Both the position numbers and the translations under genes were made by a program. From NCBI GenBank assembly GCA_947630175.1, contig CANRGJ010000008.1:1-64000 (forward strand): DNA of 64,000 nucleotides. The letters run 5' to 3'. This DNA is from an uncultured Ruminiclostridium sp. GTDB taxonomy: Bacteria > Bacillota > Clostridia > Oscillospirales > Ruminococcaceae. Below, piece after piece: positions 16,603 to 38,494 of the stretch. The notes below the pieces were generated by a model. It had not been told where the DNA came from. It searched no databases and saw nothing but the letters and a program-made list of their open reading frames with translations. Position 1 is the stretch's first letter. Every line of letters starts with the position of its first letter.

Positions 16603-17028
16603 TTATTTTATTTTTCCGTCCCCTGCCATAAGGCTTGTCAGCTCCTCTATCCGTTCAATTGGGAAAGGCGGCTGACATAACGGCTTCAGCGCTATCGACA
16701 TCAGCTTCATCGGATTGTCGTCAGCGGCGACGCAGTTGCTTGAAAGCTTTCCGCAGCGGCGGCAGCGGTGGATTATCGCCCACTCGCCGTTTTTTCTTAC
16801 CCATACCGCAACGGCGTCCATTATCCCGCCGCAGTCCGCCTCCCTGTCGCCGGGCTGATCGTCAAGATGCAGGCTTGAAAGGCAGTTGGGACAGTGGTTG
16901 CGGTGATTTACGCCTGAGCCTTCCGCAACGACTGTTCTGCCGCATACTGCGCAGACAAACACATCGTCGCAGGGGTGATTTTTATAATAACCTTTCTTAT
17001 AGCTTTTCCGCTTGTTTTCGCGGTTCAT
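16603..17028 (-). CDS. RNHCP domain protein
   Basis: A 141-residue cytoplasmic protein. It carries the signature HRNHCPNC that names the RNHCP domain, plus a first zinc-ribbon-like pair (FVCAVCG) and a third (HRCRRCG). That gives three C-x2-C knuckles and several His, so zinc binding is likely. The molecular role of the family is not established as far as I know. SD CGGGAGG is 9 bases before the ATG and is embedded in an unusual leader (17029-17190) that can pair it away. Confidence 0.85.
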   Translation of the reverse strand: MNRENKRKSYKKGYYKNHPCDDVFVCAVCGRTVVAEGSGVNHRNHCPNCLSSLHLDDQPGDREADCGGIMDAVAVWVRKNGEWAIIHRCRRCGKLSSNCVAADDNPMKLMSIALKPLCQPPFPIERIEELTSLMAGDGKIK

Positions 17029-17190
17029 AGAGTGATTCCTCCCGTAACAGCAGTTTTATGACTTCGGGAGGTAAGACAGTTCAAACCTCCCACTTAAACT
17101 GCTATCACCGTGTTTTCGTTCTTGTGTTTCAAAAAGAACCCTCCTTTTCAAAAAATTTTACGGTTTAACGACCGTTCGTCCTGTAAGCCT
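17029..17190 (-). promoter_or_regulatory. Switch-like structured leader of the RNHCP gene
   Basis: Reading the minus strand, GGGAGGT (17091-17085) can pair with ACCTCCC (17072-17066). The same CCTCCCG can instead pair with the gene's SD region CGGGAGG (17044-17038). An outer stem AGCAGTTT (17103-17096) / AAACTGCT (17056-17049) encloses the first hairpin. The two pairings exclude each other, so one exposes and the other hides the SD. A 12-codon ORF ends inside the outer stem's 5' arm. No T-run follows, so control would be at translation. Confidence 0.55.
17094..17132 (-). CDS. 12-residue upstream ORF (leader peptide candidate)
   Basis: A TTG start with an excellent SD (AAGGAGGG at 17146-17139, spacing 6) opens a 12-codon frame, MKHKNENTVIAV, then TAA. 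A ribosome finishing this ORF would cover the 5' arm of the outer leader stem and so change which hairpin forms. It is too short to test by homology. The perfect SD and the placement are the evidence. Confidence 0.45.
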   Translation of the reverse strand: MKHKNENTVIAV

Positions 17191-17210
17191 CCTTTCCTGT
17201 TGATAAATAA

Positions 17211-17239
17211 AATATATCATATTAACTCGGTATTGTCAA
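17211..17239 (-). promoter_or_regulatory. Promoter of the RNHCP transcript
   Basis: On the minus strand TTGACA (17239-17234) and TATATT (17216-17211) are separated by exactly 17 bp. It lies immediately past the end of the GH127 gene, so the RNHCP gene has its own promoter. Confidence 0.75.
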
Positions 17240-17242
17240 CAC

Positions 17243-19141
17243 TTACCCCCTGTTCATCCACACCCTCATCTGATTTTCCCCTCGGTTGCCCCAGGTGAAG
17301 TATGGCACGGCGACGGCAGTGACAGGCGTCCTTTTGGGAGCGTCCTCGCTGTAAAGCCCGTCGATATCCTCTGTTTTCAATGCGCTTACCGATATCTTAA
17401 CAGTTCCCCCAAGAAGCACCTCGTCATACGGCTGAACTCTCGCCTCTCCCGCCGTGTCGAGGGACAGCGAAACCACGTCTCCGCCGTTGTCCGCCCCCTC
17501 AAAGCAGTACACCAGCGGCCCTCTGGCAAGAGCGACCATTCCGCTTATATCGTGGAGCTTGGCGGAGGGATAGATAAAGCGGGGCGAGCCGTCAAGCGTC
17601 AGCGTTATCCTGTCGCCGTCGGAAACATCAACGTAAATATAGCCGTTTTTCGGAGCAAGGCTTATCTGCTCGTCATTTCTAGTTACCGAAAATACCTTGC
17701 TCCAGCTCGGTATTCTCACTGCAAGGGTTTTCCCGCCCTTTACCACCGTGTAATTCACTGTAAGCTCATAGGGATAGCCCGTTTCACAGGTGATCTTCCC
17801 GCCATTCTGGAAATCAACGCTCCCAGCGGCAAAAAGGTGGCAGAACATCGTGCTTTCGTCCTCACCGTAGGCGTATTTTCCCAAGGAGGAAATAAGCCTT
17901 GCCGCATTGGGAGGACAGCAGGCGCAGGCATACCATTTCGGGCGCTGAGGCAGGTCGTGGCGGTGAGTGGGGGAAACGCCTGAAATCCCTGGGATAACTT
18001 CAAGGGGATTGACGTAGAAAAACCGCTTTCCGTCAAGCTGTATCCCCGCTAAAACAGTGTTGTAAAAGGCTCTTTCCATTATATCGGCGTATTCGCCTTT
18101 CACCTCGTTTTTCAGCATAGCGAGAGCGAAAAACATAAGCCCTATCGACGCGCAGGTCTCGCAGTAGGCGGTGTCGGGCGGCAGGTCGTAGTCCACGCTG
18201 AACGCCTCTCCGTGAACGGTAGAGCCTATCCCGCCTGTCAAGTACATACGCCGTTTCACAATGCTGTCCCAAAGGCGGCGGCAAGCGGCAAGCAGCTCCT
18301 TGTCCCCGCTTTCTGCGGCAAGCTCCGCCATTCCCGTGTAAAGATATACCGCGCGCACTGCGTGTCCCACGGCGTCGGTCTGCTCACGGACAGGTCTGCC
18401 GCACTGCCTGTATTCGTTGTCGGCGGGGTCGGAGCCCCACACTGTCCAGTCCCGCTTTTCAGCCTCTCTTTTGTAAAAGTCGGTATCTTTGCCCCGCTGA
18501 TCTATAAAATATTCCGCAAGTTCAAGGCACTTTTTTTCGCCTGTCGCCCTGTACATTTTCAGCAGGGCAAGCTCCACCTCAGGGTGACCGGGAACGCCGC
18601 CGTGCTTTTGCGTGATGAAAATATCGTAGATATGCTGAACGTTTTTCAGCATTACCTTAAGCAGTTTGTCCTTTCCCGTGGATTCTCTGTAAGCGACAGC
18701 CGCCTCCATCATATGCCCTGCACAGTAAAGCTCATGTGCCTCCAGCAGGTTCGTCCAGCGCTTTTCTCTGTCCTTTATGGTGAAGTACGTGTCAAGATAT
18801 CCGTCCTCGTCCTGTGCGGCGGCAATTATCTCAATAAGCTCGTCTGCGGTCTTTTCAAGCTCCTTGTCGGGAAAGAGCGCCAGCGAATATGCGGCCGCCT
18901 CCAGCCACTTTGCCGCATCGCTGTCCTGAAATACCATGCCGTAAAATCCGTCCCCTACGTCTTCTCCACGCAGGGCTTTCCCCGCGTTGACAAAATTCGC
19001 TATAACGTGACTTTTTTCGGTATCGGGCGCCTTGTCGCACAAAACGCTGTATTGATAGGGTATGACTACGTCCTTTATCAGCCTTTGGTATTTTCCGATA
19101 AAGCCCTGGGAACGGTAGGCGGTCTGGGATACGCTTTCCAT
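17243..19141 (-). CDS. GH127 beta-L-arabinofuranosidase-like enzyme
   Basis: A 632-residue protein. The family's zinc-cysteine catalytic site is recognisable: C327-E328-x-x-C330 in YCETCASIG, and C408/C409 in YACACCPPN. In characterised GH127 members one of these cysteines is the nucleophile, with Glu and the other Cys holding zinc. Such enzymes remove beta-L-arabinofuranose from plant glycoproteins. There is no signal peptide. I start at ATG 19141 with SD GAGGAG. An in-frame start 72 bases upstream overlaps the promoter. Confidence 0.9.
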   Translation of the reverse strand: MESVSQTAYRSQGFIGKYQRLIKDVVIPYQYSVLCDKAPDTEKSHVIANFVNAGKALRGEDVGDGFYGMVFQDSDAAKWLEAAAYSLALFPDKELEKTADELIEIIAAAQDEDGYLDTYFTIKDREKRWTNLLEAHELYCAGHMMEAAVAYRESTGKDKLLKVMLKNVQHIYDIFITQKHGGVPGHPEVELALLKMYRATGEKKCLELAEYFIDQRGKDTDFYKREAEKRDWTVWGSDPADNEYRQCGRPVREQTDAVGHAVRAVYLYTGMAELAAESGDKELLAACRRLWDSIVKRRMYLTGGIGSTVHGEAFSVDYDLPPDTAYCETCASIGLMFFALAMLKNEVKGEYADIMERAFYNTVLAGIQLDGKRFFYVNPLEVIPGISGVSPTHRHDLPQRPKWYACACCPPNAARLISSLGKYAYGEDESTMFCHLFAAGSVDFQNGGKITCETGYPYELTVNYTVVKGGKTLAVRIPSWSKVFSVTRNDEQISLAPKNGYIYVDVSDGDRITLTLDGSPRFIYPSAKLHDISGMVALARGPLVYCFEGADNGGDVVSLSLDTAGEARVQPYDEVLLGGTVKISVSALKTEDIDGLYSEDAPKRTPVTAVAVPYFTWGNRGENQMRVWMNRG

Positions 19142-19180
19142 AATTTTTGCTCCTCGTTTCAGATAATAAGAGATACAAAT

Positions 19181-19210
19181 ATTATAATACGGACAGCCTG
19201 CGGCTGTCAA
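19181..19210 (-). promoter_or_regulatory. GH127 promoter with an embedded palindrome
   Basis: On the minus strand TTGACA (19210-19205) and TATAAT (19186-19181) are 18 bp apart. A palindrome ACAGCC-TGC-GGCTGT (19193-19207) overlaps the -35 box and spacer and would suit a repressor. The regulator is unknown. Confidence 0.7.
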
Positions 19211-19220
19211 CATATGTGGA

Positions 19221-38134: not shown

Positions 38135-38494
38135 TGCACGACTGCGGACGGACGTCCGAGTATGTGCGGCAACTGCTTGATAATGCGATGATGCCGGAGG
38201 TTGCGGCACCATGCCGGTAATTTCGGCGGAGTATGTTCGCTCTCGAAGCGGGCGGAAACAAAGCGTTCAGAGCAGACGAGCCTTCATAAACCGATAAATA
38301 CAGTCCGAAAGGAGCGCAGGCTTTGCAGGGAAGGACCCGCATTAAGCGGATACCCCCGTTGCCGTTCCGACGGACGCATTTTAAGGGGAATAAAGAAACG
38401 CTCGGAAGCGTGTGCACAAGTTACAAACTTGCAAACGCTTTGTATCACTGCATTTATGCAGGTGCTTTCAATTTAACGAAAGGAGAAAACGAAA
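38135..38494 (+). other. Long 5' leader of the S10 cluster
   Basis: A gene-free 360-nt leader with several local stems, for example GGACGGACGTCC, GCCGG...CCGGC, CCGTTGCCGTTCCGACGG and CAAGTTACAAACTTG. It ends with SD AAGGAG. Ribosomal operons are commonly autoregulated through such leaders (L4 in E. coli). Which protein would bind here is unknown, and I do not recognise a named leader family. Confidence 0.5.

Follow-up and report, generated by a model that had tools for sequence, protein, structure and literature searches.

The RNHCP-domain gene at 16603-17028 of the window (the whole 64,000-nt stretch analysed here; minus strand, 141 aa, PF12647, E 8.6e-37) is preceded by a leader at 17132-17029 (minus strand) that combines a short upstream ORF (uORF), a hairpin (H1) and a CCTCCCG strand able to pair with the SD of the gene. 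This arrangement raises the question of whether the leader controls translation of the gene, what signal it would read and which other genes share it.

Architecture of the leader

Upstream of the leader, a promoter-like element on the minus strand (TTGACA, 17239-17234; 17-nt spacer; TATATT, 17216-17211) was described previously as a consensus promoter. The resemblance holds (11/12 matches), but such sites are about as frequent in the surrounding 2.5-kb stretch as in shuffled sequence (2 observed vs 1.3 ± 1.2), and a promoter at this place is plausible rather than proven. The element was also seen at loci L002 and L032, with a more diverged copy at L003. A gene for a GH127 beta-L-arabinofuranosidase (17243-19213, minus) ends just upstream of it. 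Between the element and the uORF lies a small hairpin (ACGGT-CGTTAA-ACCGT, 17175-17160) with a T run shortly after; we rejected it as a minus-strand terminator, as three such hairpins occur in the 2.5 kb compared with 3.3 by chance and L003 keeps the hairpin without the T run. Elsewhere in the window, a match to the S10-Clostridia ribosomal protein leader (RF03136, 46.7 bits) was observed at 38180-38261.

The remaining features are all on the minus strand. The uORF follows its own SD (AGGAGGG, 17145-17139), starts with TTG and runs for 12 codons to a TAA stop (17132-17094; peptide MKHKNENTVIAV), with homologous uORFs in 62 RNHCP leaders. Its 3' end supplies the 5' strand of a helix, H0 (GCAGTTTAAG, 17102-17093), and the 3' strand of H0 (TTTGAACTGT, 17085-17076) lies in the loop region of H1; both strands were placed by a constrained OFF fold and by co-variation. 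The SD-like 5' arm of H1 (GGGAGG, 17091-17086) occupies columns 26-31 of our alignment A2. Opposite it, CCTCCC (17071-17066) can act either as the 3' arm of H1 or as an anti-SD, according to the pair counts for H1 and for SD:anti-SD, and its extended form CCTCCCG (17071-17065) is complementary over 7 nt to the gene SD (CGGGAGG, 17044-17038). The ATG start codon of the RNHCP gene is at 17028-17026. RNAfold further placed an 8-bp outer stem (AGCAGTTT, 17103-17096, with AAACTGCT, 17056-17049) across the uORF end, with weaker co-variation across the family. The 12-codon ORF with its SD, the two competing partners of CCTCCCG and the outer stem overlapping the small ORF were all part of the preliminary description, and each was recovered at the same place in the sequence. 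A thermodynamic fold had been suggested there as a check: RNAfold of 17026-17124 gave -35.1 kcal/mol compared with -19.9 ± 3.2 for shuffles (z -4.8; 0/200 as low).

Occurrence upstream of RNHCP genes

RNHCP matches were detected in 36/71 genomes of the genus and, at E ≤ 1e-35, in 47/394 genomes of the order. Further loci were the best 80 of 574 on named genome contigs, with titles mostly of Clostridia, Lachnospiraceae and Oscillospiraceae. The leader was present at 62 of the 148 RNHCP loci examined, a non-random sample in which the best matches were kept and three loci are exact duplicates of others. This count comprises 57 leaders from a loosened detector, raised to 62 after hand additions and corrections; the uORF was identified in 55 by the detector and in seven entries by hand (five leaders added, two uORF starts corrected). 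Two loci, L036 and L037, seem to hold decayed or rearranged leaders and were excluded.

None of 18 divergent second-paralogue loci (bit score up to 110) carried the leader. A cluster of MarR-type genes was found at 21 RNHCP loci, none of them with the leader; 20/21 members lie upstream of RNHCP, and the winged-helix/MarR match was obtained for one representative, the one lying downstream. At 10 loci, one of which has the leader, a Mor-type HTH gene precedes RNHCP. RNHCP genes were also observed in unannotated human-faecal phage records (MT836270.1, MT836461.1, MT836031.1 and MT835506.1; 50-75% identity at 87-100% query coverage).

A second, different leader (class 2) was observed on the RNHCP genes of L045, L080, L082 (the same as L126), L110, L124, L129 and L061. 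Its uORF starts 257-338 nt upstream of RNHCP and encodes MSAIRK, MSAVRK, MSAICK, MSAIR, MFAIRK or MSHIRR, each followed by a stop. In L045 and L110 the uORF is followed by AGGACAATAAAAA, whose exact complement, TTTTTATTGTCCT, stands just after a terminator-like hairpin, and the class-2 leader looks like a transcription attenuator. Scanning six of these leaders gave no Rfam match at gathering, and BLAST with that of L110 returned nothing in plasmids and short scattered matches in 42/291 genomes; the class-2 uORF was not found in the seven loci checked out of 20.

Co-variation of alternative pairings

Across 43 aligned leaders, CCGGGAGG, CCTCC and GGAGG were invariant or nearly so. The RNAalifold consensus corresponded to an OFF fold, consisting of the hairpin GACC[GGGA]GGTT and a CCTCC:GGAGG pairing lengthened by a variable stem (H2), with two-sided sequence changes in 6/14 pairs. 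Counted on A2, which had also given rise to the OFF fold, OFF positions were paired in 93.4% of cases compared with 90.2 ± 0.6 in shuffles (0/500 as high) and showed 37 two-sided cells compared with 16.0 ± 5.0 (0/500); pairs in which both sides had changed (6 vs 4.0, reached by 49/500 shuffles) were not clearly above expectation. The competing H1 gave 77.4% compared with 74.7 ± 0.6 (0/500 as high) and 15 two-sided cells compared with 8.1 (1/500), and its pairs with two-sided change (6 vs 4.5, reached by 80/500) were likewise not clearly in excess.

Because H0 varies in length, we also compared the pairing of each leader's own strands with that of strands swapped between leaders (60 RNHCP leaders, 2000 permutations), a test that ignores phylogeny but has controls of the same relatedness. 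H0 gave the strongest signal (z -9.9), alongside H2 with the SD (-8.6), H2 (-8.2), the upper and lower parts of H1 (-5.6 each) and the outer stem (-3.4); control pairings stayed flat (-0.2 and +1.0). The swapped-strand, fold-energy and peptide tests omitted loci L002 and L032, which hardly differ from L001. Both pairings open to CCTCCCG thus co-vary among leaders. The outer stem proposed earlier as partner of the uORF end does co-vary, but the H1 loop, through H0, which had been missed, is the stronger partner.

At the family level the SD is sequestered in the uninduced fold, as judged from the consensus fold and from 40/60 MFE folds of RNHCP leaders, and the ON fold was lower in 20/60. The window leader is predicted to be ON without a ribosome (ON -35.1 vs OFF -23.9 kcal/mol; H1 1.00) and, by 11.2 kcal/mol, favours ON most strongly among the 60. 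A pseudoknot with H0 and H1 formed simultaneously was discarded, since inspection by eye of a few leaders left only 0-3 nt to cross a helix of at least 8 bp.

Conservation of the uORF peptide

Conservation at the uORF end extends to the peptide. Among the 42 RNHCP uORFs whose stop lies immediately ahead of H1, the penultimate residue was Val (31), Ala (9) or Ile (2), with GTG, GTA, GTT and GTC all used as Val codons, and a codon-shuffle test gave an in-frame z of -7.6 compared with -0.3 and -2.8 in the other frames. A further 17 RNHCP uORFs continue past GGGAGG, one base out of frame with the first group, and in most of these I-V/A sits at almost the same position (Ile 14/17, Val/Ala 16/17). 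That the residues persist despite the shifted frame argues for conservation at the level of the peptide. In the codon-shuffle test, the read-through group yielded a weak signal (z -3.5 in frame 0, then -1.6 and -3.2, the last in frame +2). L009, whose stop lies inside the H1 arm, was placed in neither group. The comparison of homologous leaders that had been put forward as able to refute the preliminary description turned out in its favour: 62 leaders have a uORF, the alternative pairings co-vary and the C-terminal part of the peptide is conserved.

One leader family before RNHCP, GNAT and RsgA genes

A covariance model built from RNHCP leaders alone (R1) matched 81/394 genomes of the order (E ≤ 0.01), 42/381 of the class (E ≤ 0.001) and 6/199 of the phylum (E ≤ 1e-4). 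At E ≤ 1e-6, the 52 places in the order preceded RNHCP (15, of which 10 belong to the model's own alignment), GNAT (36) or RsgA (1) genes. The 18 places examined of 19 new ones in the class (all except G506:C49, E 6.4e-12) preceded RNHCP (5), GNAT (10) or RsgA (3), and the four new places in the phylum GNAT (2) or RsgA (2). All 74 examined places at this threshold therefore lie before RNHCP (20), GNAT (48) or RsgA-type GTPase (6) genes, and this holds for 64/64 places once the 10 training sequences are removed, 54 of them GNAT or RsgA. In none of the 74 was the downstream gene an rRNA methyltransferase. Weaker matches were mixed, including further GNAT and RsgA genes, two cat-like genes, and unrelated genes or none. 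Gene assignments rest on Pfam for L171 (GNAT), L184 (RsgA) and a fusion at L012, and on translated sequence and motifs for the others. For GNAT, the family libraries gave NCBIfam matches below cut-off only (RimI at E 5.8e-5) and, in PHROGs, a generic acetyltransferase (E 9e-33). At L257 the leader precedes a GNAT frame seemingly without its usual start. The earlier attribution of the leader to the RNHCP gene is thus correct as far as it goes, but the leader is not specific to RNHCP.

The GNAT and RsgA leaders reproduced the features of the RNHCP set. The uORF detector was passed by 51/58 model matches, six of which were dropped as near-duplicates. Among the 45 non-redundant leaders the swapped-strand test gave z -9.2 for H0, -3.8 and -6.2 for upper and lower H1, -4.2 for H2 and -7.6 for H2 with the SD, with a control of 0.0. 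Thirteen GNAT leaders have GAAAGG as SD and, in most cases, GAGAGG/CCTCTC arms, such that the SD pairs with a mismatch. The 51 leaders encode 39 distinct uORF peptides, MKKNNTLEIVR followed by a stop being typical; GNAT uORFs, not all of them independent, carry Glu/Asp at codon -4 in 45/46 and Ile at codon -3 in 40/46. A motif of roughly E-I-V is common to RNHCP, GNAT and RsgA leaders.

These results bear on three other accounts of the leader. Similarity by chance or inheritance, with no regulatory role, would fit the promoter match and the terminator-like hairpin, which alone are no commoner than in shuffles; with co-variation against flat controls in two separate sets, and the leader standing before three gene families, we regard it as exceedingly improbable. 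Autoregulation, through binding of the downstream gene product to its own leader or an effect of that product on uORF translation, draws some credit from the known action of RsgA-family proteins on the small subunit of the ribosome. We consider it improbable, as one leader family before three unrelated protein families means that no single product could be a common repressor, and the leaders show no conserved core of the kind expected for a protein site beyond the switch strands.

The third account is a ligand-binding riboswitch with an incidental small ORF; a ligand had been offered in the preliminary description beside a ribosome on the leader peptide as the agent that selects the pairing. 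Alternative SD pairing and a conserved GNRA-topped hairpin are features it would explain. The conserved strands in the aligned leaders were GGGAGG, CCTCC, the SD and this hairpin, and no further core was seen. The 58 GNAT/RsgA matches were not picked by their uORF, yet 51 carry one; conserved residues vary synonymously, and the strands of H0 and H2 vary freely while pairing, unlike a ligand pocket. Rfam 15 gave no match over the leader in the window, at 12 loci (gathering) or at eight loci (E ≤ 1), the four matches in the last scan all lying off the leaders (one tRNA and three weak). Because the uORF peptide is conserved while helix sequences change freely, a ligand is the less likely signal and a riboswitch quite improbable, and it is the ribosome on the leader peptide that comparison and folding calculation favour.

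Predicted effect of ribosome position

The leader is probably a ribosome-operated translational attenuator working like the erm and cat leaders, judging from the comparative evidence and the folding models. In the OFF state, the uORF 3' end would pair with the strand after GGGAGG (H0, topped in most leaders by an ACC[GGGA]GGT-like hairpin), and CCTCCC would be free for the gene SD. In the ON state, a ribosome halted some 3-4 codons short of the uORF end, on the conserved E/V - I/S - V/A motif, would break H0 and leave GGGAGG free to take CCTCCC (H1), releasing the gene SD. A ribosome at the last codon or stop would cover GGGAGG and the SD would stay hidden, such that the leader would read whether ribosomes stall at the peptide motif. 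We infer that ribosomes stall at the motif and that a ribosome-targeting antibiotic or comparable stress on translation would cause this.

The dependence on position emerged from folding calculations in which a ribosome footprint was imposed on 96/111 leaders, with P sites given in nt from GGGAGG; 15/51 GNAT/RsgA leaders without GGAGG near the start were excluded, 13 of them with GAAAGG facing CCTCTC. Ribosome-free leaders were divided (H1 0.44, SD:anti-SD 0.52). With the leading edge at +11, P sites at -17/-14 (E/V and I/S codons) gave H1 of 0.79/0.86 and SD:anti-SD of 0.16/0.10, and P sites at -8 (last codon) and -5 (stop) gave 0.04/0.00 and 0.80/0.89. The position predicted to induce thus coincides with the conserved motif of the peptide. 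The outcome varies with the footprint assumed, as an edge at +15 moved the ON positions to -20/-17 and left -14 mixed (H1 0.33). With an edge at +12, 44/54 leaders that were not ON alone became ON at -17 or -14, and 10/96 still lacked H1 with a ribosome at these positions. Mean SD accessibility rose only from 0.18 to 0.37-0.40, a small gain because other pairings touch the SD. Geometry alone accounts for the OFF effect of a terminating ribosome in the model, but not for the ON effect.

The strong OFF effect of a terminating ribosome is also what a simpler sensor of uORF occupancy would require. In such a sensor, translation to the stop hides the SD, and whenever the uORF is translated less (through slow elongation, a shortage of amino acids or fewer ribosomes) H1 can form and the gene is turned ON, with no peptide-specific stalling. 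The window leader behaves in this manner in the calculation, as a ribosome near the uORF end switches it OFF, rather than a stall switching it ON; possibly this leader is leaky, or its outer stem counts for less in the cell than in the calculation. Against occupancy sensing stand the conservation of the C-terminal peptide beyond the RNA columns in the larger group and its presence in leaders of unrelated genes. In addition, 51/96 ribosome-free leaders were OFF (SD:anti-SD >0.5), and the absence of a ribosome would not induce these. We therefore judge occupancy sensing unlikely, though it deserves attention, and retain stalling at the motif as the working account.

Relation to known attenuators

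In erm leaders such as ermC/ermCL, a short uORF is followed by segments that pair as 1:2 and 3:4 or as 2:3 with the SD in the last segment, and stalling on the uORF, involving a short nascent chain with hydrophobic residues, releases the SD. The present leaders share all of these attributes of the scheme, the stall at the level of the proposed mechanism; they differ in the uORF peptide (roughly x-E-I-V-x), in the genes (RNHCP, GNAT and RsgA) and in having the H1 GGGAGG in the apical part of H0. The cat leaders, which mediate translational attenuation of chloramphenicol acetyltransferase, likewise place a CCTCC:GGAGG hairpin before an acetyltransferase gene, but GNAT differs from CAT in fold family. 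The two cat-like R1 matches were weak (L274, E 3.3e-5, PF00302 E 7.6e-90; L227, E 2.2e-4, assigned by eye from the protein), and L274 has only the SD hairpin in common with the model, an E-I-V uORF not being seen by eye.

In the available parts of the respective articles, ermCL is reported with an Ile at position 9 (Ile9; PMC12121999), and the toiL uORF of Escherichia coli topAI-yjhQP, together with the whiB7 uORF cited there, resembles our leaders in hiding or releasing a ribosome-binding site and sensing several ribosome-targeting antibiotics (PMC12121999). toiL differs in sequence, genes and phylum, and in E. coli it is coupled to Rho. Similarly, the accessible text of PMC8632094 describes uORFC-6-1, a uORF candidate upstream of hflX in Bacillales, thus before the gene of a ribosome-acting factor and with a proposed response to antibiotic stalling; the gene is another and the proposed effect is on transcription. 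The portions available of two articles on uORF candidates (PMC11109978 and PMC6429828) do not mention RNHCP, RsgA or GNAT genes. Our literature searches on RNHCP, MSAIRK, RsgA and GNAT attenuation, with subscription journals and preprints mostly outside their range, found no description of the leader. The statement in the preliminary description that no attenuator had been described for RNHCP genes thus stands in the literature searched and in Rfam. The class of mechanism is known, and in these same sources the RNA family, the peptide motif and the three-gene set were not found.

RNHCP, the ribosome and a candidate regulon

For RNHCP itself, an uncharacterised zinc-finger protein, we found no assigned function, a full-text search for the name giving two chemistry papers only. 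It matched nothing in NCBIfam or PADLOC, its match in PHROGs reached only E 0.0038, and no solved structure came closer than E 0.1. Its associations point to the ribosome. The gene at L012 (466-1887) encodes an RsgA-RNHCP fusion (PF03193 and PF12647), L175 has the order leader-RNHCP-GNAT, L259 has leader-RsgA with a GNAT gene further downstream on the same strand, and a Vibrio plasmid carries TetR-RNHCP-rsgA. Candidate RsgA-RNHCP fusions, known only as open frames of 471-508 aa, were observed in G298, G347, G161, G355 and G399. On a Streptomyces plasmid (L268, 4524-5994), two RNHCP genes lie beside an FBP_C zinc-finger gene, FBP being the FusB/EF-G-binding type. Taken together, the shared ribosome-reading leader, the fusion with RsgA, and the RNHCP-rsgA, RNHCP-GNAT and RsgA-GNAT neighbourhoods place RNHCP in ribosome stress.

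As to the inducer, we lean towards something antibiotic-like, with a ribosome-targeting antibiotic as our best guess. In Streptomyces coelicolor, according to the part of PMC7157823 available, the WblC/WhiB7 regulon, raised by translation-targeting antibiotics, includes 16 GNATs, and RsgA/EngC (SCO6149 and SCO5211) is named among the activated gene/paralogue pairs, apparently with one of the two RsgA paralogues in the regulon. It is conceivable, although we hold this with slightly more doubt than confidence, that RNHCP, the RsgA-type GTPase and GNAT make up a so far undescribed regulon in Clostridia and their relatives that is attenuated gene by gene, each gene with its own copy of the same leader-peptide sensor (roughly T-x-E-I-V). 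Such a regulon, a counterpart of the actinobacterial WblC/WhiB7 response, would act against a single class of agents that stall ribosomes, and the ribosome would be where RNHCP acts.

For a protein to which our searches found no function assigned, a role in ribosome stress is a placement open to direct test. Should an antibiotic be the inducer, the leader family would mark three gene families as candidates for tolerance in anaerobes and would provide a natural reporter for finding the agent.
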